In this document: positions 1 through 24,372 of the stretch, one piece after another | How positions within the stretch are numbered: position 1 is the stretch's first letter | Layout of the letters: every line of letters begins with the position of its first letter | Source of the DNA: a virus | IMG/VR virus record: IMGVR_UViG_3300044716_000828 | Location: 1-28,831 of that record | Length of the DNA stretch: 28,831 nucleotides | Strand: one strand, 5' to 3' | Translations under genes and position numbers: made by a program | The notes under the pieces: generated by a model | What the model was told of the DNA's origin: nothing | The model's database searches: none | The model's input: the letters and a program-made list of their open reading frames with translations, nothing else

Positions 1-1215
1 CTGGGTGTTATTTGAATCATCGGTCGATTCATCGAATAATACAGAATTTAAAGTTCCTGTAATGTAACTTGAGCTAAATGGAAAATTCCATTTGAGAGAG
101 GATGCTACTAAATAATCACCAAATACATCTACACTATATCCAAATTTATTATTTTTAAAGTATCCATGATCATCATCAACTATTCCGTTATGAATCTTTT
201 GAGTTTTTTCCCATCTATTATTACATCTTCTATAAATAAATGCTGAACCCCTCTTTATTAACGTAGATCCACTATATTCATAATATTGAGATTCATTTGG
301 ACATCCTATAATTGCCCAGTCACCATAAATTGATAATGATTTGCCAAAGTTATCATATGATTGAGATGATGATGAACTTGGATACATGTCAAAATACGGT
401 AATTTATAATTAAAATCTCCGTCACCATTAAATTTAGTAACTTCTACCCAACCAACGGAAGAAGACTCAAAGAAATATACGGTTCCATTGCTTGAATTGG
501 ATGAACTATTAGCAATTATAAGTCGTTGACTGCTACTAACATCTAATTTTACAGAAGATCCAAAATAATCTCCTATTATACTATTGCTTCCTGTCAGCGA
601 TGTTAAATAGTTCCAAATATTTCCCGATTTTGTATATAATAATACTTCCCCTTTATGATTGAAAGATTTATTTGCCCCTATTGCAAGGATTCCGTTTGCA
701 ATTGATACGTCACATCCAAAACTACCACTTTCTCTATTAAAAGAACTCGTAATAGTAAAGTATGGAATAACATCTTGTGTAGAAATATCGTATACATCAA
801 CATTTGAACCGGTTATTAGTGTAGTTGGATTCGGAGAATAAACAGAACAAGAAAAATATCTTGTAGCAATTGCTAAATCATTATTATACAATGATAATGC
901 GTTTCCATATTCGTTTTCTATTTTATTTACACCTGTATTGTCTGTGAAATCATATTGTATATATTGTGAATCTTCCGTCTGTAAATCATCAGTTTGTGAT
1001 AAATTGAATACATTGTTATTATCTTGATCTATAGATTTTTGAAGAGTCAAATAATCATCATATTTTCCGGTGCTATAATTGTATTTTTTAACAGATACTT
1101 CGCCGATGCTAAATCCGGACCCACTTCTAAATGACGGAGGCGATCCTACAGCAATATAATCGCCATAAGAAGCAACTTTATAACCATAATTTTCATTTTT
1201 TATATTAAAATTCAT
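1..1215 (-). CDS. FG-GAP beta-propeller virion protein (3' end beyond window)
   Basis: An uninterrupted frame of 405 codons begins at the ATG at 1215-1213 and reaches the left edge without a stop, so the C-terminus is missing. It reads MNFNIKNENYGYKVASYGDY at the start. Motifs recur about every 50-70 residues with the FG-GAP/integrin-alpha pattern (FG-x-S-V-x-gd-x-l-vGaP): YGYKVASYGDYIAVGSP, YGNALSLYNNDLAIAT, FGCDVSIANGILAIGA, FGSSVKLDV, FGKSLSIYGDWAIIGCP and FGYSVDVFGDYLVASS. Six repeats are visible, so one more could complete a seven-bladed propeller. Such propellers usually bind ligands or surfaces. Its place at the end of a structural operon, 1 base after its upstream neighbour, suggests a virion or adhesin role, which is inference. 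There is no Shine-Dalgarno; the upstream bases are A/T only apart from one C. No signal peptide is seen. Confidence 0.85.
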   Translation of the reverse strand, partial: MNFNIKNENYGYKVASYGDYIAVGSPPSFRSGSGFSIGEVSVKKYNYSTGKYDDYLTLQKSIDQDNNNVFNLSQTDDLQTEDSQYIQYDFTDNTGVNKIENEYGNALSLYNNDLAIATRYFSCSVYSPNPTTLITGSNVDVYDISTQDVIPYFTITSSFNRESGSFGCDVSIANGILAIGANKSFNHKGEVLLYTKSGNIWNYLTSLTGSNSIIGDYFGSSVKLDVSSSQRLIIANSSSNSSNGTVYFFESSSVGWVEVTKFNGDGDFNYKLPYFDMYPSSSSSQSYDNFGKSLSIYGDWAIIGCPNESQYYEYSGSTLIKRGSAFIYRRCNNRWEKTQKIHNGIVDDDHGYFKNNKFGYSVDVFGDYLVASSLKWNFPFSSSYITGTLNSVLFDESTDDSNNTQ

Positions 1216-1216
1216 A

Positions 1217-4200
1217 TTATGTTATATAATTTATATTGTAAACCGATGAACTATTTGCATAAATTTCACGGATTCCAAATCCTTTAATTGTATAATTTCC
1301 TCTAACACCATATTTTCCATAAACTTTAAGGAAGTCTACTGGTTCGCCACCTTCGGATGCGTCCTTACCATTATATGCTGTGTTGTAATATTCATTAATA
1401 TTTGTTAATTCGCCAACAGCATTTGTAAAATCACTATTACCTTGAGTGCCATACATAGTTCCGTTATATGACTTGAAATACACAGACGATGTTCCGGCAT
1501 TTTTATCTTGAGCACCACCAGCAATAATTCCTAATAGTGCATATTGAGAACCAGTTTGAGATCCGGTTATAAAATAACTATTGCCACCCACCGGATCGCC
1601 GATCAAAGATATTGATACAGGATTTACTGTCAAATTTAAATTGTGTAGTCCTGCTATCCACCTTCTATTTGCACTATAGTCACGGAATGATATGACTAAA
1701 ACATCTGTTGATTTAAAGCTAGATGGTATAGTAAAGTTTTCATTTTTAACATTTACATACTGACGATCTGGTGCTTGATGATCACTTACAAATATCTGTG
1801 TAAAATTCTTGAACATTTCGATTGATGGTGATGTCGTAACATCCCAGATTTGATAACCAAGTAATAAAAAGTCATTTATATATCCATTGAAACTTAAACT
1901 TAATACATCGTTTGCTTGAACAATATATAATTGGTCTCTCGCAGTCAAAATACCATAGTTATTTAACTGTTCCTGAGTCACACTATTTCCTACAAAAATT
2001 AAATCCTTATTAGGCCCTATCGGAACTGGACCAATTAATTGTTCTCCGTAATAATCTCTATATTTAGGAACAGGAATAAAATTTTTAAGAATAGGTGCGG
2101 TTATCGGATTTAAATCGGAATTTGGAGGATCAATAATTAATTTTGATTGTTTATAACCAAATTCGCCTCTTGAAACCGAAGGTGCGTTTCCTTCAGCTAA
2201 ATATCCTTTTATCTCCGATGAAACAGGTTGAATTTGGTATTGTTGCAATTTTCCGTTTTTGCCTACATAGGCTTTAACGGATTGCAAGTTTTTGTCTATT
2301 ACATATTTGGATGGTAATGTAAAACTAATACTTGCACCAGACCCACCGATTTTTCCATAACCATTTCCTGTAAATTGATATAAAACACTATCGTTTGTAT
2401 ATGGTGATTGTCTTTCAATCGAAATATCCAATGTAAAATCGGCAGAATAATTTGAGTCAGTATTAGTAACACTAACTGCATATAATCCCGCAAACATTTT
2501 ATTTGTGCAATTTTCTGATGGTGTAGGAATATTAGGTGTCCATTTTAGATTATATTTATTATTTTCTTGACTTGTAGGCAATTCACATCCTGATGCTGGT
2601 ATCGCATTGATTACTATTTTTGCCAATTGTTTAACGTTCTCTGTAAATTTAGAATCATTAATTTTAGTTATTATTGATTGTTTGAAATTACTAAAAGTTA
2701 CGGAGTTTATTGAGAATGTATCTATACCAAAAGGATCGGATGGGATAAATGGACCACCGCCGCCGACAATTTCAAATTCTGGATCATAACCTCCTCGTTG
2801 TAAAGTATAACCATTTAATGTTGGATGTGTAGATTTTACTGTATTCCAACTGCCTGTTACCGATGGGTCATAATATTTTTTAAGATTATAAGATGAACTG
2901 GTAATATCAGAATTCAACTGACGTGTTAAATTATTTCCACTAAAATTATATATGTCGGTGAATATGTATATAAAATCTCCGATATTTAAGTTCGCCGTTT
3001 GATAGACACTGATGTTAGTGCCGGGTGATGATGCTACTATCTTATACGTTCCAACCGCTGATGGTTTTGCATTTGACCCATTATATGTAATAGTAGGATT
3101 TACAGAGTTTGTTATATCAATATCTCCGTTTCTGGATGGAATATAAATTTTATTTATCTTTACATCTTTTATCTCATCCGACACAGTTTTTACATTCTTT
3201 AAATTCTCTGTTGTGTAAGGATATTCTTTGATGGAATTTACTTGTGTTAAATTATCAAATACAACGGTTGCGGTTGTAGGTTTAATTGTAACAGTTGCGG
3301 TTGATAAATACCCACTCTCTGAAGTTAGTCTGATCGGATCTTCTTTTGATATAAATATTTTATACGTATTCGCATCTAAAGGATAATACTGTAATTCAGT
3401 TAACGGCTTCTGTGAGGGTTTTGTAACATTATAATCAGGATATATAACGGATGACACTTTTGTATAATTGACATATTTATCTGTTCTGTATAATGTAGGA
3501 TACGTTACTCCATTAACTATTTTGTTTGAAAACGCACTTCCGTAACTTATGTAGTAAGTATCATTTTTATTGAAATGAGAAGTTGCAACAAATGTAATTC
3601 CATTACCAACAAAATATGGGTAAGTGTCATACGTAACGGTCTGAGATTCAATACTAACAGATGTATCAACTTTTACAGTTATACTTGGTTGGGTCAAACT
3701 ATATTTTGCTGAATCTGTTCCTGTAATTGTATAATTGCTGCTCAAAGTAACTGAAAAACTACCCTCTGATGCGGATGATGTTATAGTTCCTGTTGAAGGT
3801 TTCAAATTAATAGTTACAATGTTACCGTCTACTATACCGATTAAATTTGCAGTTTGATTGTTTATATTTATCGTCGTTGAATCTCCAATTTTTATATTAT
3901 TTGCACTTACGCCTGTAATTTGTAGAGATTTTTGTGTAACCGTAAATGTGACTGTCGTCGAAACTGAAGCAAATCCGTTGATAGTAGGCATTGTTTCGGC
4001 CTTCACAGTAACCGTTCCCAAAGAAGCAGCAGTTTTACTAGGAACTATATCCAATTGGTTATTATTTAGTATTCTTGCTAAATTTCCACCGCCGGTTATA
4101 GTATATTTTATTGGAAACCCATTAATACTGTCTGTCGCACTGAGTGTTCTAAAATTAAAATCTCCGTATACTATATTGTTTATAGATGGGAAATTAATAG

Positions 4201-5278
4201 AAGACGCTGCCGCGGTTATTGATAATGTGCCAGTTGATTTTCCTGTATATCTAGAATCTACAATAGTTGCCGTCACTGTATATGTTCCAACATTTTTAGC
4301 TTCATCGACATTTGATCCTACCGTGTTATATTGTAGAGAATAGTTTAATCCGGCTGGAATTGTAGTAACCGAAAGAGTTTTTGGATTTCCATCATATGCA
4401 AAAGTTGCCGAAGTAACTGTAATAGTTGCCGGTGCTTTAGTAATTTCCAGTGTTCCTGTTTTAGTTCCACAATAAAAACTGTCTACTATTTCACAATAAA
4501 CAGAATATACACCAACTTCTGTCGGCGGAGTTTCAGATCCGTTATAAGTTACTTTTACTGTTAAGTTTGGTGGAAGTGTGGTAACTGAAACTGATTTTGA
4601 AGATCCATCATAAGCATAGTTATTATTACTTATTTGAATAGTAGCATCTACGCAGTTAAAGTTTGCATTTTGTCTATCAACGAAAGTGCTTCCACTTATG
4701 ACTAAGTTTGTATTACCGTCATCTATTGCGGTGACGTGACAGTCTTCAAGTTCTTGGTTTATTTTTACACTGTAAGGAACAATTTTTTCACCAAACTTAT
4801 TTTGCGGAACAGAAAATACAGATATTTGTGAAGGCAAAGATCTATTGACTCCGCTTGTATCAAGCGATTCTAATCCAAATATTTGAGTAGGATTTTCACT
4901 TTCTTTATAATACAGATTTTTAACAGTATTATATACCAGCCTTTGATAACTATCATCGATGTTTACAGGATTGGTATCAGAGTTATAATATTTGCTATCT
5001 ACTGTATAAAAGGTAGATCCGGTAATTTCTTTGCCAATTTTGAATCTTACAAAGTCTGGATCTTGTTGTTGATATGCAATTGCAGAGGAAAATGCAGAAG
5101 AAACCTCTGACATTTTTGTTCCATCACCATAGTCAAAAAACGTTAATAACAATGATCCACTTTCACTACCACTTTGCCAACTTATTAAATCTTCGAATCT
5201 TTGATTTTGTGCGTTCCAAGATTTATTGGCAACAAATGGTGTGTATCTGATATCATTTCTTTTTAACGATTTGATCAT
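1217..5278 (-). CDS. Large structural/adhesin protein with MBG and YDG Ig-like repeats
   Basis: 1353 residues. The first ~200 residues resemble a structural-protein N-domain I associate with T4-like marine phages (around YQRLVYNTVKNLYY and ISVFSVPQNKFGEKIVPYSV), probably the virion anchor. Next come bacterial adhesin-type beta repeats. Two MBG-like units lie at about 208-280 and 283-355, each with YAYDG/FAYDG-x-x-K, TxP-x-G/N-L and VGxYxV...GTLxIT. A VYGD-type unit lies at about 360-450. A YDG-like unit at about 445-535 ends in GTDSAKYSLTQPSITV. A further unit near 725-765 contains ITYNGSNAKPSAVGTYKI. The rest to 1353 is beta-rich and unrecognised. MBG/YDG repeats are typical of long secreted surface proteins of bacteria, so a host-contact fibre or decoration is likely (inference). 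No Shine-Dalgarno; the start is 1 base after the upstream stop. Confidence 0.85.
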   Translation of the reverse strand: MIKSLKRNDIRYTPFVANKSWNAQNQRFEDLISWQSGSESGSLLLTFFDYGDGTKMSEVSSAFSSAIAYQQQDPDFVRFKIGKEITGSTFYTVDSKYYNSDTNPVNIDDSYQRLVYNTVKNLYYKESENPTQIFGLESLDTSGVNRSLPSQISVFSVPQNKFGEKIVPYSVKINQELEDCHVTAIDDGNTNLVISGSTFVDRQNANFNCVDATIQISNNNYAYDGSSKSVSVTTLPPNLTVKVTYNGSETPPTEVGVYSVYCEIVDSFYCGTKTGTLEITKAPATITVTSATFAYDGNPKTLSVTTIPAGLNYSLQYNTVGSNVDEAKNVGTYTVTATIVDSRYTGKSTGTLSITAAASSINFPSINNIVYGDFNFRTLSATDSINGFPIKYTITGGGNLARILNNNQLDIVPSKTAASLGTVTVKAETMPTINGFASVSTTVTFTVTQKSLQITGVSANNIKIGDSTTININNQTANLIGIVDGNIVTINLKPSTGTITSSASEGSFSVTLSSNYTITGTDSAKYSLTQPSITVKVDTSVSIESQTVTYDTYPYFVGNGITFVATSHFNKNDTYYISYGSAFSNKIVNGVTYPTLYRTDKYVNYTKVSSVIYPDYNVTKPSQKPLTELQYYPLDANTYKIFISKEDPIRLTSESGYLSTATVTIKPTTATVVFDNLTQVNSIKEYPYTTENLKNVKTVSDEIKDVKINKIYIPSRNGDIDITNSVNPTITYNGSNAKPSAVGTYKIVASSPGTNISVYQTANLNIGDFIYIFTDIYNFSGNNLTRQLNSDITSSSYNLKKYYDPSVTGSWNTVKSTHPTLNGYTLQRGGYDPEFEIVGGGGPFIPSDPFGIDTFSINSVTFSNFKQSIITKINDSKFTENVKQLAKIVINAIPASGCELPTSQENNKYNLKWTPNIPTPSENCTNKMFAGLYAVSVTNTDSNYSADFTLDISIERQSPYTNDSVLYQFTGNGYGKIGGSGASISFTLPSKYVIDKNLQSVKAYVGKNGKLQQYQIQPVSSEIKGYLAEGNAPSVSRGEFGYKQSKLIIDPPNSDLNPITAPILKNFIPVPKYRDYYGEQLIGPVPIGPNKDLIFVGNSVTQEQLNNYGILTARDQLYIVQANDVLSLSFNGYINDFLLLGYQIWDVTTSPSIEMFKNFTQIFVSDHQAPDRQYVNVKNENFTIPSSFKSTDVLVISFRDYSANRRWIAGLHNLNLTVNPVSISLIGDPVGGNSYFITGSQTGSQYALLGIIAGGAQDKNAGTSSVYFKSYNGTMYGTQGNSDFTNAVGELTNINEYYNTAYNGKDASEGGEPVDFLKVYGKYGVRGNYTIKGFGIREIYANSSSVYNINYIT

Positions 5279-5279
5279 T

Positions 5280-6326
5280 TTAGAAATCTAGTCTAACTTT
5301 TATCAGTGCTTCGTTGTCGAATTTCTTAAGAATGGGTTGACTAGTTTTTGCTACTGCAACTAAATCGTTATTTTCATTATATAAACCTATGGTAGTTATA
5401 TACGTTCTTGGGTCTGTATAAAACTCGGTGAAACGTATCTTTCCAGTGGTTGGTGACAAGACATAAGTTGGGTTATTAGAATAATTAAATTCTTGATTTT
5501 TAACACGAACAAAATAATGTCTTGATGGTAAATATTCAGATTTTCTTGCGTAGAAATAACTATTATTACATAAAGTTATAGAATTTAAAATCTTTTGTTG
5601 ATTTAACTTATATGCGCCTGTATTGGTTATGTCGGGAGTTAAATTAGTTCCAACAATTGATGCAACCTTATCTGCGTTTAAAACTATTATTCCATTTTTT
5701 GGATATAAAGTTCCGATACCGTCATATACTGCACTTACAGTTCCTCCTTTTGTATATGGTGATGCGATTCCATCAACAATACTTCCGCTAACGATGTTAT
5801 ATGAATCTGAAAGGTTTTCAGTAACAACATAATCGTCAACGAATGTAAAAATTCCCTTACTGCCACTCAAACTAAATTGAATATGTCCTTCATCAAGACG
5901 ATCTTTGAACTTATTTGTGGAAAATGATATAACATAAATGTTAGACGACGTTATCGTATTAGAAGCAGATGAAGTTGCAAATGAAAATTCAGTTGTATTT
6001 GATGACAATAGAATATTCTTATATTGAGAATATATTACTTTGCTAGGATATGCTTTTACCGTGCTTACATCTACAGCGGAACTTCCACTTCCATATAAAT
6101 TTCCAAACGCCACCGAAAAATATGGTTCGCCTGCATAATAAACATCATTATAATACAACCCATTTTTCAAATCATTGATGTTAGAACCGCTTGCGACAAG
6201 CTGATATGGGTTTGTATAAAATGAAGATTGTAGAGCACTTATATTTCCATTGCCCCATAAAGGTGAAGATACTCTGGAAATCTTTCCAGTAATTATATCA
6301 GTTGTTTCAAATTGTTTGAATGTCAT
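5280..6326 (-). CDS. Conserved phage structural protein
   Basis: 348 residues. I recognise the pattern PYFSVAFGNLYGSGS ... VKAYPSKVIYSQYKNILL ... IYVISFSTNKFKDRLDEGHI as a family found among virion genes of T4-like marine phages. Its exact role (baseplate, neck or decoration) is not known to me. The protein is beta-rich with no signal peptide, membrane segment or catalytic motif. It sits 1 base upstream of the MBG-repeat protein and 3 bases after the 208-residue protein, so the genes are almost certainly co-transcribed and their products may assemble together. The start at 6326 is followed by MTFKQFETTDII; no Shine-Dalgarno is visible before it. The structural assignment rests on context and remembered family resemblance, not on a search. 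Confidence 0.75.
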   Translation of the reverse strand: MTFKQFETTDIITGKISRVSSPLWGNGNISALQSSFYTNPYQLVASGSNINDLKNGLYYNDVYYAGEPYFSVAFGNLYGSGSSAVDVSTVKAYPSKVIYSQYKNILLSSNTTEFSFATSSASNTITSSNIYVISFSTNKFKDRLDEGHIQFSLSGSKGIFTFVDDYVVTENLSDSYNIVSGSIVDGIASPYTKGGTVSAVYDGIGTLYPKNGIIVLNADKVASIVGTNLTPDITNTGAYKLNQQKILNSITLCNNSYFYARKSEYLPSRHYFVRVKNQEFNYSNNPTYVLSPTTGKIRFTEFYTDPRTYITTIGLYNENNDLVAVAKTSQPILKKFDNEALIKVRLDF

Positions 6327-6329
6327 AAA

Positions 6330-6956
6330 TTAAACGGTTACAGTTACTGGAATTGTGATACTACCGCCGCTTTCATTACCTATTATAGTCAAATTTGCAG
6401 TTGTAGTTTCGGCAATACCTGGATTTGGTAAAAACTTAAATTGCAATCCTATTACCACTTGAGAAGTTTCACTTGAAACTCCGGTAAAAGATGTCACCGT
6501 ATTAGATACCGTATTTGCAGTAACGTTTACGGTAGGAACGATTGTTCCAAGGTTCTTATTTGATAGAATTGCCGTATAACCAACTGTTGTATTATAAACA
6601 GGAGTAGTGCTTGGTGAAATAATTGAATCTCCTGTGAATGTATTACGAACATTGATGTTAGTAATATTCAAGGAAATAATAGGAATAGTAGTAATACCTA
6701 AATTTAGGGTTACTAACTTATATTTCATTAGTTGGGTCTCATCAAAAAACGCTTCTAAAATTGGTGTTTTTCTTATGGCAAAATCATTAAAATTAGAACC
6801 CTCAGGATGATTTGGATCATATAAACTATAATCAATTTCATCGTCAGCCAATGCAAAGGATGTTATGTTAAGATTGCCATTTTGAGCCAACAATTCTCTT
6901 CCTTTTTTAGTTAATGTGGCGTCCACTATGATTGTTTTGTTGTCTAAATATGCCAT
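6330..6956 (-). CDS. Conserved phage virion protein (MAYLDN family)
   Basis: 208 residues. The N-terminal half, MAYLDNKTIIVDATLTKKGR followed by ELLAQNG...FALADDEIDYSLYDP, is a pattern I know from structural genes of large T4-like phages. Residues ~1-85 form this conserved part. Residues ~90-208 are Thr/Val/Asn-rich and read as one or two Ig-like beta domains (IIPTVNVTANTVSNTVTSF, TTANLTIIGNESGGSITIPV). No enzyme motif or membrane segment is seen. It lies 39 bases downstream of the 1398-residue baseplate-like protein and 3 bases before the 348-residue protein. The phrase TLTKKGRELLAQ suggests a small helical attachment element preceding the beta domain (inference). No Shine-Dalgarno is present before the ATG. 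Confidence 0.75.
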   Translation of the reverse strand: MAYLDNKTIIVDATLTKKGRELLAQNGNLNITSFALADDEIDYSLYDPNHPEGSNFNDFAIRKTPILEAFFDETQLMKYKLVTLNLGITTIPIISLNITNINVRNTFTGDSIISPSTTPVYNTTVGYTAILSNKNLGTIVPTVNVTANTVSNTVTSFTGVSSETSQVVIGLQFKFLPNPGIAETTTANLTIIGNESGGSITIPVTVTV

Positions 6957-6995
6957 ATGTTATATAAATAGTGTAGAATTCCAGTTTTTATTATT

Positions 6996-9900
6996 TTATA
7001 TATTGAAAATACTTTGACTTAAAGATAAACTTTGAGTTAAAATTGGAGAATAAGATAAAGAACTTGTCGTAGTAGATGAAGTTATCTCATAAGAACTGAT
7101 GATAGTAGTCAAGTCGGTATTACGAGATTTTACATATATTCTGTCTAAATAAACATTTCCAATTCCCAATGTAGTTTTACTTATAGTAACTGTATTATCA
7201 TTGGTGTCTTTAAATGAATCGTCATTAAAATATAAAGGTTTATCGTTCAAATAGATTTGAAACTTTGAAAACGGATTATTTTTATAAATATAGTGTTGGA
7301 AAGGCAATACATTTGTTATTTGTAAATTAGAATCTTTTAATGGAATATATTGACTTCCAATTTGTGTAAGATCATTAGAACTTGATACGGGAAATATCTT
7401 TTCTAATTTGAATTCTATAGGATTTGAAACCTTATCATTGCTATATATGTATTGAATTTCTTCAGATTTTACCAAATAACACATCTGTTTTTGTTCATAA
7501 TCATAAAACGGTTTGTTATCCGGAACATATTGGCTCAAATAACTTATATTGTCATCTGAGGATATATATCCGTTGTTAAAATTATATTGTTTAATTTCAT
7601 TTCTACTATCATTTACTTCCAATATAGGAGAATAATCATCTGTAGATGTAATTTGACTATCAACATTATCATATAAGCTTATAGAACCGTTATAAGACGT
7701 AAGTTCTTCTTTGGATGCAAATCCAGTAGAAAATTTTGGTCTTTCTAAAACCGAAGGTTCTACTAAAATACCACCCAAAAATTTTGTTCTTGCCGGAATG
7801 ATATTTCTAATTACATCAAATATGGAATTATCGATGTAATTTTTGTATAATGTTATAAATTCTTGATATAAAACTTGTTCACCGTCAAATTTATAATAAT
7901 TCTCTCTGAGAGTGTTTAGATCCTTATATGAACTTTGATTTAAATTTCCAGGATCAGCAATCGAATCCATCACATTCAAATCGCCATAAAAGTTTAAAAT
8001 ATCATCATCTTTTGACTTGAATGGTGAAATATAAACTCCCAAAATGTTTGAATCCGGAGACATTACATTCAAATTTGTCGCTACACTTTGAACGGGAGAA
8101 GGTGCAGTTGTTAATTCTTGTTCAATTCTACGGATTTTATTGTTTTTTAATTTATTTGGACCGTATTGTGATAGTATTATGCTTTGTGGCAATTCAATTA
8201 CTTCAAATTGATATGGGTATACCGATTGAGAATAGAAAGTGCAAGAGTTTGACTGTGTTACGGAATTGTAGGTAAAATTATAAGCATACCCATTTTGAGT
8301 TTCGTTGCGTTTAGTTTCTGGGAAGTCTGGATAAATTGGAACTACTGCAGAAGAACTTTGTAAATTTACAGGATAATCATAACTATACTTGAAATTTAAG
8401 TAGTCCCAAGTCTTATCAATGTTTTCATTTCCATAAAAACCGTAATTTCTACAATATTCTGTAAAATCATAATCGGATATTGGGTTTTGAATAAGTTGTA
8501 TTTTATCTAATAACCCTGTAAAAATATTAGAACTATTGTAATTTCCAAAACTTATAAACTCTTTACTAGAAAATAGTTCGTTATAGGTTCTGGTTAATAC
8601 AATGCTTGATGAATGCGCAAACGTTTCTCTATCTGAATCATATGATTTAACAACTAAATCATATTTTGTAGGAACATAATTCTCATCATTGGATGAATCG
8701 AGCAACGACGATGTTTCATTTCTTCTTAATAGAACATTGAAGAAAGAATCGTTGTTAAAAATTGGAACACTAGTAATTGATGTAGATTTATCTTGTATCT
8801 GAAATACAACATCTCCGTATTTATCTACCTTTCCTTTTTTAAGGTATATTTTCCAAGTATTAGATCCTTTATTAACCAATTCAACAACATTATTTGTCAA
8901 ATAATTTTTGTTTAACTTGAATGTAAATTCTAAAGATTTAGAACCTGAATATGGAATCGATAAATATTCATTGTTCGAATTAAATTTAGTAAAATAATAT
9001 TTTGCATCATACAAGTATGATGTCTTTTTATTTTTAAATATATCATTGCTTCCGAATTCTCTTACAGTTAAAATGTTTAATGGTATTCCGTGACATGACA
9101 AAATTAAGTTTATACATTCTTGGGTTCCTTTTGTTTTATAAATTTGAGGAAGCGTATCAAGAATTCTTTTCCAGATAGATTCGGTTTTATCCTTGTATGA
9201 TACTGTATTTGAAATATAAGATACAATCTCACTCTTGTTTGCGAAATCGGTAGAAGTATCCCAACCGAAAGTTTTTAACATGTAATATACAAAATCACTA
9301 ATATAAGTGTCGCTTGATTCCGTATTATTCAATATAGGGAAAGATTTTATATACTGGTATATATTATCGAAATGGTGTCCCGTCATTGACAAAAATAACA
9401 AATAATCCGAGTTATTTTCATCATTCTTTATATTCTCAGGAGTGTTATTTACTAAACTGTCTATATTTTCTATATCGTATTCTTCTGCTGTCAATATATA
9501 ATTATAGTAGTTTGAATTAGGATCTTTTAAACTTCCTTCTATAAGAGATTGATTGTTATACAAATACGATTCATAACCATCAAATGAATTTAAAGTTTCG
9601 TTAATTTTATCATTATTCTTTTCGATTTGAGACGAATAAGAAGATGAAATTACAATGTTAGATGCGAATGATGCAGATACCGATAATTCTGATATACTTC
9701 CGCTCAAGGAAGTTATTAACTCCAATTTGTTTTTGAACACTTTAGTTCTTATTGCGGCGGATGAAAATACCACAAATTCTGAAAAATTAGAATAGTCTAC
9801 ATTTAAAGTATTTAATTTTTTAATTACATTGATTTCCGATAAATCTCTATTCGATACATTGTCGCCTAAAGAAGAAACATTGTTTATCTTGTTTTTCTCG

Positions 9901-14019: not shown

Positions 14020-15999
14020 TTAATTTACATTTCCTATTATGTCTATATCTGGATATTTGACCTCAAACACACATGGGTCCAATGAAGGATATATTATTTT
14101 ATTCTTTGTTGCGGCATTGATGTCATATTGATGTGGAGAATAATTTCCATCTTCGGATGTTAAATTATAAACACTCAATTGTGCTAGAGATTGAACACCT
14201 TCAACTCTTGCGATTTCTAATTCTAATTGACTTAAATTAATTGGTTGGGAAAATCCCCATTTATCAATATCAAAAAACTCCTTGACTTTCTGATTACAGT
14301 AATTTAAAACATCTCGTTTGTTATAATTGTTATAAATTACAATGTTATACTTGACACCGACATTAATTATGTATCCGTCAATTATATTAATTCCGTCAGT
14401 GAGTAATCTGTATTTTGATAAGTATTGTTTTAAATTATAAGATAAAACATCATTTATCGGAGTTAAATGTTTTTGAGAATCGTATGATAACACATACAAA
14501 TTAATGGAGAATGGATTACTTATATCGTAATTAATCTTTCTAAAATAATTTTCGATATCATTTGTAACTCCCGTTGCATTATTGTTGTAATCTACAAACC
14601 CACTAACATTTTTTTGTAAATTAAAATTTAAATCTGTATCAGATTTTACGTATGCCTTTGCTACACTTCCAAATCTGGAAGGCATGGATAATGATCTAAG
14701 AACATAATCATCTTTAGTAACTGCTCTGTTTTGAGAAACAAATGTTGATGTTGCATTTTGACGTATTTCTTCAACACTTTCACTATCCTTCCCACCAGTC
14801 GCTGCGATATAGTTATTAACTCTTAATGATTGCACCATCGTGTTAAATAAGTTTTGTTCGACTGGATTTAACGATGTAGAATCGTTTAACAATTCATAAG
14901 ATTGTATTCTTATGATTTCATTTACATTACAGTTAGACAATAATCCTCCACCAACGATGTAGTTTATTGTTAAAACTGTATTTGAAGGTGATACACCATA
15001 CGTATTTGTTTTTAAAAAATTGCTACTATCAAGTGAAATATCAATGTTTTCAATATTAGACAATCCTATTCCAATAACATTTGAATTTGGATATACAATT
15101 TCATCTGAATTATTATCAATATTTGCACCAAACTCTAAATATGTTATGTTATTAGCCGTAATATTACGTGTAAATTTCTTAGAAGTCTTCAAAGACTTCA
15201 TAATCTTAGGAACTTCTGTTTTATATATATAAAAACTTCCATCATTCGTCTCTATATTATCAATTTCAGTAAAAATTACGTCTTGTGCCAAATAATCGAC
15301 TTCATACCACTTGTTATTTTCAGAATCTCTTACATCAATAATTTCCAAAACATCAGTTTCATCAAATTCTACTTTATAAAACGGAGTAGCACTTCCAACG
15401 GAAACAGTTTTTGTAACTATTCTACCCGCAAACGCTTTTGCGGTTTTTCGTATTAAGAAAAATTGAGGGACGCCAAGAGAATCTCTTGAATATACTGAAA
15501 CTTCTCTTGGAGAAAACTTCGTATCGACTGAAAAATCTACTGGGTCACTTATAAGATATGATTGTCCAGATATATTTTCGAGTTGCATGTATTGCCGTAA
15601 TGACAAAGCATACTTATCGTCTGGAATATAGTTTCCATCACTATCAATCTTGGACGGAACCAATTGAAACAATTCTATTTCAGTTACCGCAGACTTTGCC
15701 GCGTATGGTTTATAACCCAAATATTTAGCTAGGGTTAAAACATTCTTCCTTTCCTCTGCAAATGGAAGTAAACTTTCCTTGAATTGATAATCAATATAGT
15801 AGGATAAAACATCGCCTACATACGCTGCCTGTTCAATAAACATTGTTCCAGGTGAAGCATCACTAAAATCTTGATAACTTCTTGGATAATAATTTTTAGC
15901 AAAATCAATCAAACCTTGCTTAAAGGAATTAAAATCCCTATTAAGATATCTGACATCTTTGTTTAGTGGTTGAAATGATTTTTGTATAATCTCTGGCAT
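14020..15999 (-). CDS. 6: Baseplate wedge protein gp6-like (Baseplate_J type)
   Basis: 659 residues, the same size class as T4 gp6 (660). The N-terminus has RDVRYLNRD-like sequence (NKDVRYLNRDFNSFKQGLID), then FSDASPGTMFIEQAAYVGDV and LSYYIDYQFKESLLPFAEER...LAKYLGYKP, the hallmark of gp6-type wedge proteins. Residues ~400-450 carry the J-domain signature GGKDSESVEEIRQNATSTFV followed by RAVTKDDYVLRSLSMPSRFG. The C-terminal part (~500-650) is the alpha/beta region seen in the family, with WGFSQPINLSQLELEIARVE. In T4-like phages gp6 dimers form the ring that holds the wedges together and controls sheath contraction. It starts 5 bases downstream of gp25, its known structural partner. No Shine-Dalgarno; the upstream bases are A/T-rich. 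Confidence 0.93.
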   Translation of the reverse strand: MPEIIQKSFQPLNKDVRYLNRDFNSFKQGLIDFAKNYYPRSYQDFSDASPGTMFIEQAAYVGDVLSYYIDYQFKESLLPFAEERKNVLTLAKYLGYKPYAAKSAVTEIELFQLVPSKIDSDGNYIPDDKYALSLRQYMQLENISGQSYLISDPVDFSVDTKFSPREVSVYSRDSLGVPQFFLIRKTAKAFAGRIVTKTVSVGSATPFYKVEFDETDVLEIIDVRDSENNKWYEVDYLAQDVIFTEIDNIETNDGSFYIYKTEVPKIMKSLKTSKKFTRNITANNITYLEFGANIDNNSDEIVYPNSNVIGIGLSNIENIDISLDSSNFLKTNTYGVSPSNTVLTINYIVGGGLLSNCNVNEIIRIQSYELLNDSTSLNPVEQNLFNTMVQSLRVNNYIAATGGKDSESVEEIRQNATSTFVSQNRAVTKDDYVLRSLSMPSRFGSVAKAYVKSDTDLNFNLQKNVSGFVDYNNNATGVTNDIENYFRKINYDISNPFSINLYVLSYDSQKHLTPINDVLSYNLKQYLSKYRLLTDGINIIDGYIINVGVKYNIVIYNNYNKRDVLNYCNQKVKEFFDIDKWGFSQPINLSQLELEIARVEGVQSLAQLSVYNLTSEDGNYSPHQYDINAATKNKIIYPSLDPCVFEVKYPDIDIIGNVN

Positions 16000-16004
16000 A
16001 AAAA

Positions 16005-16403
16005 TTATATATTATTAGTAGTTACAAAAGAGAAACTACTGGTTTGTTTGTTAAATGTAAATTGCACGTTCACCCTTATTATATAATTATTGGTATCATT
16101 GTCTTTTTGTGCGGAAGAAATGTCTAAAAACACTTGATTTACAAAAACATTTGGAAACCACGTCTGAATATCTTCTTTAATTATATTTTTTAAGATATCT
16201 TCAAAATCATCGGTTCGTTGTTCGAATAGAAAATTATACAATCTAGTTCCAAATTCTGGATTAAATCTTCGTTCAGATGGTCTTGTTAGGAAAAAGTTAA
16301 GCAAATTAGAACGTATTTGAGTGAGTGAATCATATGATTGTTGAAAATACCCACTGTTACCACGCTCTATTGGCAATGTTAATCCTATTGTAGAGTTTGC
16401 CAT
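16005..16403 (-). CDS. 25: Baseplate wedge protein gp25 (GPW/gp25 family)
   Basis: 132 residues, the same size as T4 gp25. Residues ~30-62 carry the core family motif: SNLLNFFLTRPSERRFNPEF followed by GTRLYNFLFEQ. The T/R-P-S/G-E-R/x-R segment is the conserved EPR-like turn. The C-terminal half (IIKEDIQTWFPNVFVNQVFL, VNVQFTFN) is the alpha/beta part expected for the family. In contractile tails this protein joins the wedge to the sheath and helps initiate sheath polymerisation. It precedes the gp6 homologue by 5 bases, as in many myoviruses. No Shine-Dalgarno is seen before the ATG. Function from family is well established; the assignment rests on motif, length and neighbour. Confidence 0.93.
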   Translation of the reverse strand: MANSTIGLTLPIERGNSGYFQQSYDSLTQIRSNLLNFFLTRPSERRFNPEFGTRLYNFLFEQRTDDFEDILKNIIKEDIQTWFPNVFVNQVFLDISSAQKDNDTNNYIIRVNVQFTFNKQTSSFSFVTTNNI

Positions 16404-22215: not shown

Positions 22216-22698
22216 TTACTTAATCGTAACTTTTCTTATTTCAGTCATCGCAGGTTTTACCTTATTGAGAGTAATTAATAAAATACCATTTTCAAAAGTT
22301 GCTGATACGGTATCTTTATCAATATTTTCCCCTAAAGTAAATGATCTACGAAAACTAGAACGTTTCAATTCTCGTCTAATATATTTTCCACCTTGAGAAT
22401 CTGTAACATTTTTACTTTTACCTCCACTGACTGTAAGCACATTTTGTTCCACTTCAACATTTACATCTTGTTTACTTAAACCTGGAACTTCGGCTTCTAT
22501 AACAACTTTATCACTATAATCAATAACGTCTACTCTTGGATAAGACCCCTTTTCAAAAAAGTCTACACCAAATTCTTGGCTGAAATTAGGGACGTTTGCT
22601 TTAAAAAATTCATCGAAAATTTGATCAAATGGAGTTAAAAACTCATCACGATGAACTGCACGAAATAACGGATTAGTTTGATATTTTACTACTGACAT
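22216..22698 (-). CDS. hsp20: Hsp20 small heat-shock protein
   Basis: 160 residues, normal for the family. Residues ~53-145 are the alpha-crystallin domain: PRVDVIDYSDKVVIEAEVPG, LSKQDVNVEVEQNVLTVSGG, YIRRELKRSSFRRSFTL and the conserved FENGILLITLNK. The N-terminal arm has PFDQIFDEFFKAN, and the C-terminus ends RKVTIK, a V-x-I form of the I-x-I assembly motif. Hsp20 proteins hold unfolding proteins in soluble form; T4-like cyanophages commonly carry one, perhaps to protect virion proteins or to aid assembly. AGAAAGGA at 22705-22712, six bases before the ATG, is one of the best ribosome sites in the window. A bulged hairpin lies just upstream, and a terminator follows the gene. It is framed by fibre genes and the membrane protein. 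Confidence 0.95.
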   Translation of the reverse strand: MSVVKYQTNPLFRAVHRDEFLTPFDQIFDEFFKANVPNFSQEFGVDFFEKGSYPRVDVIDYSDKVVIEAEVPGLSKQDVNVEVEQNVLTVSGGKSKNVTDSQGGKYIRRELKRSSFRRSFTLGENIDKDTVSATFENGILLITLNKVKPAMTEIRKVTIK

Positions 22699-22824: not shown

Positions 22825-24372
22825 TTATTGCCATTCGATAATAACTTGTCCATGCGATCCGCTTCCTCCATTTATTGAAGTTAATGAATAGAATGAACTT
22901 GCACCGCCACCCCCACCGCCTGGGAAATCTCCGTTATTGCCGAACCAAGAAGATGTTATTACTCCGGATGAAGAAATACTAGTGTTAAATAATCCACCAG
23001 CTCCACCAAAATAACATGCTCCGCCAGCTGAACCGGATACTACTGTTGATGTATATCCATCCTCACCACTTACAATTACACTACCTGAAGAAAGCGATCC
23101 TTTGCCGCCTGATCCACTGTTTGGTGTAGTTACCCCGCCACCGGCACCGTATCCACCGTCGGCAAGAACTATAATAGTGCTCGATGTCAAATATACATAT
23201 GAATCTCCACCATCAATTCCACCACTTCCGAATGAAGCTGGGTTTCCTAAAGAACCTGTTCCTCCAGAACCTCCTCTTCCTACAATTACGGTTAGAATGT
23301 CAGATGATGCAGTTGGTAATAGATAGTAAGATTGTGCATATGCACCACCGCCTCCGCCTGATCCTCCTACGGAAGTTCCATAAGAAGTGGCACCACCGCC
23401 ACCACCGCCAGCACCAATTGCGGTAATTCTAAGTAATAGAGAACCAGTTGTAGGTTGAGCCGAATATGGATCAAAATTACCTTTAAATCTAAAAGTATGT
23501 GTTCCAGGAGAAGAATATGAAACTTTTCTTGTTGGTGTAAAACTTAAAATACTAGAAGTCAATGAATAACTTGAAGATATCGAATTGTTAGACAATTGAG
23601 TAAGACTGCTAGTATATGCATATAAAGAATTAGTAGAATAATCTGATGTATCAGATTTTAATGCATGTGATGAAGATTCGTTATAACTTGCAGTTATCGA
23701 AAACGAAGATGATATTGATGTGTTGCTATAACTAGATGTTAATGAATAACTTGACGACGTGCTTTGATCTGAAACCAAAGATAAAGAAGATGATGTAGAT
23801 GTAAAAGCGTAACTAGATGCATTACTATAACTAGACGTTAATGAATAACTTGATGATGGAGCAAACGCCGAACTTACAGCCGTTAGTGAAACTAGAGATA
23901 CTGATGATGTTTCAGCAAATGTTGTCAATGAAGAATAACTACTACTTATAGAATTTAACGCATTAGTAGATAAACTTGAAGAATCTGAAAATATAGAAAC
24001 AATCGAATACGAAGATGTGGAGATATTTGGCCAATTTAATGATAATGCAATTGAGGATACAGATGCCGTATTTGATGATTCTGATGATACGGAATATGAA
24101 GCAGTTGATGAGTTTGGATATTGTAATGATTCTGCCGATATCGCAATAGATGACGTTGAACTAAACCCAATAACATTGCCTGTTAATGATCCCGTTACAT
24201 TTCCTATTAATTCTCCTGTCAATGATCCGCTAAAACTGCCCGTCGAAATATTAACGATTAAATCAGACACGGATGCTCTATATGTAGTAAGAGAACTACT
24301 CTGAACGAGTGGAAAAAAATCTTCTCCAATCACTTGTCCTGGATATTGTGATAAATCGCTGATCTTTGGCAT
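22825..24372 (-). CDS. Tail-fibre protein with Ser-rich shaft and poly-Gly tip
   Basis: 515 residues. Residues 1-45 (MPKISDLSQYPGQVIGEDFF, TYRASVSDLIV) are an N-terminal attachment domain shared with the next two genes. Residues ~46-72 have G-S turns (GSFSGSLTGELIGNVTGSLT). Residues ~72-278 are a Ser/Tyr/Ala-rich shaft built of SSSYSLTSSYSN-like steps. From ~280 a beta strand block (GTHTFRFKGNFDP) leads to a glycine-rich domain: ITAIGAGGGGGGATSYG, GGSGGGGGAYAQSYYLLP, VIVGRGGSGGTGSLGNP and FPGGGGGGASSFY, ending HGQVIIEWQ. This matches the glycine-rich domain used as a receptor-binding tip in some phage adhesins (poly-Gly sandwich, as in gp38-type adhesins). It is probably the receptor contact. 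No Shine-Dalgarno. Confidence 0.85.
   Translation of the reverse strand: MPKISDLSQYPGQVIGEDFFPLVQSSSLTTYRASVSDLIVNISTGSFSGSLTGELIGNVTGSLTGNVIGFSSTSSIAISAESLQYPNSSTASYSVSSESSNTASVSSIALSLNWPNISTSSYSIVSIFSDSSSLSTNALNSISSSYSSLTTFAETSSVSLVSLTAVSSAFAPSSSYSLTSSYSNASSYAFTSTSSSLSLVSDQSTSSSYSLTSSYSNTSISSSFSITASYNESSSHALKSDTSDYSTNSLYAYTSSLTQLSNNSISSSYSLTSSILSFTPTRKVSYSSPGTHTFRFKGNFDPYSAQPTTGSLLLRITAIGAGGGGGGATSYGTSVGGSGGGGGAYAQSYYLLPTASSDILTVIVGRGGSGGTGSLGNPASFGSGGIDGGDSYVYLTSSTIIVLADGGYGAGGGVTTPNSGSGGKGSLSSGSVIVSGEDGYTSTVVSGSAGGACYFGGAGGLFNTSISSSGVITSSWFGNNGDFPGGGGGGASSFYSLTSINGGSGSHGQVIIEWQ
23552..23858 (-). repeat. Direct repeats in the Ser-rich fibre shaft
   Basis: A 34-bp unit at 23726-23759 recurs at 23825-23858 with three differences (core gttaatgaataacttga). 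A shorter, more diverged copy lies at 23552-23579. All are in frame and encode S-S-S-Y-S-L-T-S-S-Y. Similar but weaker copies fill the shaft. This looks like length variation by in-frame duplication. Confidence 0.75.

Follow-up and report, generated by a model that had tools for sequence, protein, structure and literature searches.

P0001, a gene of a freshwater phage, is a single minus-strand ORF (5278..1217, 1353 aa) in which a conserved phage N-terminal domain is followed directly by domains of bacterial surface-adhesin type. It is found in IMG/VR record IMGVR_UViG_3300044716_000828, of which positions 1-28,831 are the window studied, that is, the whole 28,831-nucleotide stretch. With a probability of about 75%, P0001 is a modular adhesin attached to the tail or baseplate, composed of an anchor, a bacterial-derived Ig-like stalk that was acquired once, and a variable tip that contacts the host, the C-terminal half of a compact precursor having been relocated behind an FG-GAP propeller (Table 1). 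According to this model, residues 1-205, which in the ancestor made up one half of a compact phage protein with two domains, would hold P0001 to the virion. The stalk would consist of some six Ig-like beta-sandwich units in tandem, with MBG_3-MBG_3-YGD-YDG among them, and the fast-changing C-terminal region would be the tip in contact with the host surface. The analogy of phage tail fibres and of the tail-associated BACON repeats of crAss-like phages (PMC6949934) underlies this proposal of an anchor, a stalk and a host-binding tip.

Table 1. Features of P0001 and its neighbouring genes in the window
Feature	Coordinates	Strand	Basis
P0001: candidate modular tail-module protein (anchor, Ig-like stalk, tip)	1217..5278	-	ORF and Pfam
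Putative N-terminal anchor domain, residues 1-205	4664..5278	-	homologous to N-half of immuto gp165 and of compact IMG/VR proteins
MBG_3 domain 1, residues about 206-283	4430..4663	-	PF18887, 78.3 bits at 4433-4645
MBG_3 domain 2, residues about 284-358	4205..4429	-	PF18887, 64.1 bits at 4208-4429
YGD-type Ig-like unit, residues about 359-446	3941..4204	-	profile match to bacterial YGD units
YDG-type unit, residues about 447-533	3680..3940	-	PF18657, full length
Divergent beta-rich unit, probably Ig-like, residues about 534-680	3239..3679	-	predicted strands, patchy confidence; aligns in relatives
Third MBG-type domain, residues about 681-795	2894..3238	-	PF18887, 26.0 bits at 2978-3103; confident beta sandwich
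Variable C-terminal region (putative tip) with glycine-containing GGSGAS segment	1220..2893	-	
Downstream gene, cut by window edge: FG-GAP_2 propeller	1..1215	-	complete in L004/L006/L007, ending in compact-protein C-half
Gene 5' of P0001: immuto gp164 orthologue, synteny anchor	5280..6326	-	

The MBG_3 family (PF18887) matches P0001 with an E-value of 2.8e-35 and 120.7 bits for the whole protein, in three stretches (residues 212-282, 286-356, and about 726-767); the curated Pfam cut-off is 25 bits for MBG_3 as well as for YDG (PF18657). The two MBG-like units that the original prediction placed within residues ~208-535 are thus real, with the strand corrected to minus. The predicted extent of the array is too short, as the third MBG_3 stretch lies outside it and the Ig-like array continues to about residue 775-795. 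A YDG-type unit had also been predicted, and PF18657 aligns over its full length at 3937-3683 (E 5.2e-6 for this record), where its 21.7 bits stay below the cut-off; at the same position in orthologues the family scores above the cut-off (L021, 55.4 bits, E 7.7e-15; L018, 37.0 bits, E 4.2e-9; L015, 25.9 bits, E 1.2e-5). The remaining predicted unit, VYGD, has no Pfam match. A profile built from the phage YGD units matches YGD-type units of Verrucomicrobiota (full-sequence E 1.5e-17 and 1.7e-10, several repeats each) and nothing in shuffled ORFs, which bears out its resemblance to bacterial YGD-type units. MBG_2 (PF18676), suggested along with these families, gives no match to P0001 at E 10. 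The Pfam scan of P0001 and five orthologues contains no BACON family, Pfam and NCBIfam reveal no cell-surface sorting domain in P0001, and its N-terminus (MIKSLKRNDIRYTPF...) has, by eye, no hydrophobic signal stretch.

In the AlphaFold model, residues about 209-775 are predicted to fold into tandem beta-sandwiches, confidence being mostly high as far as about 530 and once more beyond about 660, and the modelled array comprises MBG_3-MBG_3-YGD-YDG and two further units. Foldseek matches include titin, bacterial GhpA, RTX adhesin and cadherin-type tandem repeats, all with low TM-scores, and the fold matches in BFVD include many phage Ig proteins. Because the TM-scores are low, the predicted fold indicates a generic Ig-type stalk architecture and is not a family assignment. 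The same holds for the solved GhpA of Aureispira, RTX adhesin repeats and titin I-band, which share the tandem Ig-like beta-sandwich stalk architecture with the P0001 model at just 9-16% identity.

P0001 itself is without an NCBIfam or PHROGs match. PHROGs matches of nearby genes place it inside a tail/baseplate cluster with a gp25-like baseplate wedge gene (16403..16005, PHROG 2.4e-13) and a J/gp6-like one (15999..14020, PHROG 7.3e-14). The best relatives of the latter product are those of Microcystis phage Mel-JY01 (42%), an uncultured 484-kb phage (40%) and Flavobacterium phage immuto (37%). The gene preceding P0001 (6326..5280) is related to immuto gp164 at 33% identity (E 7e-48), and in immuto, as in the window, the next gene encodes the relative of the P0001 N-domain, gp165. 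Elsewhere in the window, at 22825-24372 on the minus strand, SSYSLTSS-type repeats are followed by a terminal Gly_rich_2 domain (PF21722, 2.5e-11), and the product may be a second receptor-binding tip. An Hsp20 small heat-shock protein gene (1.3e-23) is located at 22216-22698, also on the minus strand; in both scans the reference was in its listed orientation and the ORFs were read as minus strand.

The N-terminal domain (residues 1-205) is conserved across IMG/VR contigs. BLASTP between this domain and gp165 is weak (E 0.001, residues 95-176), and in a multiple alignment the two pair over most of the length of the domain. Each of the 20 distant IMG/VR loci read has a gene for a compact, MBG-free protein of 339-374 aa, whose N-domain leads straight into a C-domain that ends ...YITTVGLYNDANELIAVGKLGQP...VVKIDI. 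These compact homologues (L029-L053) and gp165 resemble P0001 in the N-domain and in their place after a gp164-like gene, but they hold both halves in one protein and have no MBG, stalk or tip. The predicted fusion of bacterial-type adhesin domains with an N-terminal structural domain of phage origin is therefore supported, residues 1-205 occurring in other phages with the C-domain and without MBG. The predicted structure of the compact anchor protein has a mean pLDDT of only 38, and the anchor domain has no solved structural relative and no PHROG; its presumed position in the virion is therefore read from gene order.

In the clade of the window P0001 lacks the compact C-domain, which instead closes the downstream gene, where it scores 36-41 bits with the compact-C profile vs 21-25 bits with the upstream-paralogue profile. 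As the C-domain is absent from P0001 and ends the next gene, the compact ancestral protein has apparently been divided in two, with the MBG stalk and tip added to its N-half and the FG-GAP propeller to its relocated C-half. Several of the downstream proteins carry dockerin-like calcium loops (in L007, PF00404 at 1.9e-4, just below the cut-off).

Directly after the anchor, MBG_3-MBG_3-YGD-YDG is collinear in nine aligned phage sequences, which form two subclades (window/L012/L013/L015/L006 and L018/L020/L021/L025). The block is only 29-37% identical between the subclades. Over the first 800 residues, relatives from independent samples are 37-53% identical to the window, with intact frames, and an FYCG/YYCG stretch in MBG domain 1 is conserved within the window's subclade. 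The C-terminal region, on the other hand, has been exchanged: L006 has RCC1 repeats there, and L018/L021 have unrelated sequence. L007 encodes just the anchor, in a gene of 205 aa that a gap of 9 bases separates from the one that follows, and MBG_3 is absent from its 37-kb contig. Since its near relative L006 has the stalk, the bare anchor looks like a secondary loss. Baseplate wedge genes nearby (gp25-like and gp6/J-like), a conserved phage anchor and an exchanged tip agree with what a tail/baseplate adhesin would be expected to display.

L006, part of IMGVR_UViG_3300027754_000112, has RCC1 cassettes at 1801-2700 and 8401-9600, in two different tail-module genes. The cassettes have ~49-62% GC in a phage of roughly 30% GC, and identity between them reaches about 85-90% in some segments. 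L007 and the window have no insert at the RCC1 site of the 1398-aa gene, and the cassettes look like a recent foreign import. RCC1 repeats are found in at least 52 IMG/VR loci. Another IMG/VR contig group (L057-L061) encodes a protein of 923-925 aa with one weak MBG_3-like domain.

The stalk domains would descend from bacterial surface adhesins and have been acquired once, before the freshwater phage clade diversified. A search of 50,697 phage records with P0001 gives no match, and the more canonical block of L021 gives three weak matches only. By identity, the nearest relatives of the window MBG domains are repeats of Verrucomicrobiota (54%) and Geobacteraceae (49%). In a tree of MBG_3 (73 columns only, with a comb-like backbone among bacterial MBG_3), the phage domains of each subclade cluster by position and not by phage, window domain 1 grouping with domain 1 of L006/L012/L013/L015 (100/96). 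For domain 1, a single lineage in both subclades is not rejected (p-AU 0.226). Grouping by position together with this p-AU fits a single old acquisition before the clade diversified, followed by vertical descent; separate acquisition in each of the two subclades may be an alternative. The acquisition would be old, as the insert is common to the whole clade and the block, at a GC of 0.32-0.38, lies near the phage value of 0.31. Bacterial origin is supported in part and is the best reading. With 73 columns and an open backbone the tree singles out neither Bacteroidota nor any other group, and donor and direction of transfer stay short of proof. Of the proposed capture of an adhesin segment, the joining of bacterial-type domains to a phage N-domain thus stands, the 20 distant relatives lacking the insert. 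In the unrelated phage L084, a different gene (4882-7407) contains MBG_3 twice along with repeated YGD-like units, an independent acquisition. A literature search for MBG domains in phages found nothing.

The original prediction also took the repeats as a pointer to the host group. This is not upheld, as MBG_3 scores above the cut-off in few genomes of Bacteroidota (7/297) and in many of Verrucomicrobiota (38/195), the best matches are in Geobacteraceae and Verrucomicrobiota, and the insert is old; the domain hence does not indicate the host. Shine-Dalgarno signals at gene starts (window 3/19, immuto 1/27, Mel-JY01 9/25) were considered as a second route to the host. They are compatible with a host poor in such signals, for example one of the Bacteroidota, but are too weak for use.

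The role of the MBG/YDG units can be read in another way, namely that they are themselves the binding part, for example for glycan or matrix, and have kept an adhesive function instead of being a mere passive spacer. A role in binding carbohydrates and hosts has been attributed to phage Ig-like domains (PMC6949934), and retention of the FYCG/YYCG stretch in the window's subclade is suggestive of such a function. However, the block has kept its order among relatives with different C-terminal regions (L006; L018/L021), L007 manages without the block, and no MBG_3 binding activity was found in the literature searched. A fixed block order with a swapped C-terminal region is the pattern expected of a generic stalk and a specific tip, and binding by the MBG/YDG units appears unlikely.

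Their origin has likewise been weighed. That the array is a long-standing, ordinary phage Ig-like family, merely resembling MBG/YDG and owing nothing to bacterial transfer, is distinctly less probable still: MBG_3 scores far above its cut-off, identity to bacterial repeats reaches 54%, close matches are lacking among the 50,697 phage records searched, MBG_3 is frequent in Verrucomicrobiota, and the insert is absent from all 20 distant phage relatives examined. These points outweigh the commonness of tandem Ig-like domains in phages, the many phage Ig proteins among the BFVD matches and the presence of MBG_3 in the unrelated L084. The tree agrees with the bacterial affinity foreseen, the repeats falling in the comb of bacterial MBG_3 and not solely among unrelated phage Ig domains. 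Mis-assembly of the metagenome, or fusion of a bacterial contig fragment to phage genes, is highly improbable: the close relatives are indeed all metagenome contigs, yet the junction and the order recur across independent samples with intact frames at 37-53% identity, and the GC is near the phage background. An anchored adhesin with a borrowed stalk remains the preferred reading.

The closest precedent is found in crAss-like phages, in which tail-module genes contain tandem BACON repeats with a suggested role in host binding (PMC6949934), likewise Ig-like tandem repeats of bacterial-surface type in phage tail genes. P0001 differs in having MBG_3, YGD and YDG in a mixed, ordered block apparently inherited as a unit, in having as its anchor half of a split compact tail protein, and in belonging to freshwater and not gut phages. 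Bacterial surface proteins with MBG_3 and YDG (Verrucomicrobiota, Acidobacteriota, Bacteroidota and Geobacteraceae) have the same families in tandem, alternating with YGD-type units, but are usually much longer and without the phage anchor; the same four-domain block at high identity occurs in none of those examined. Phage tail proteins with borrowed bacterial Ig-like domains are thus already known, and what is new is the domain type and the split-protein context. A more tentative proposal, on which we would put limited weight, is that this phage group repeatedly imports MBG/YDG blocks, FG-GAP propellers with dockerin-like loops and RCC1 propellers between the anchor and the C-domains, making a two-gene host-attachment device from one compact protein. 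If true, the RCC1 cassettes of L006 would represent such an import shortly after it took place.

MBG_3/YGD/YDG joins the list of domains that phage tails have taken over from bacterial surfaces, and its presence in a phage should not be taken as a sign of a Bacteroidota host. Comparison of the relatives locates the join between the two halves of a compact tail-module protein. The natural series of compact protein, bare anchor, and anchor with stalk and varied tips offers a way to probe the function of the stalk.
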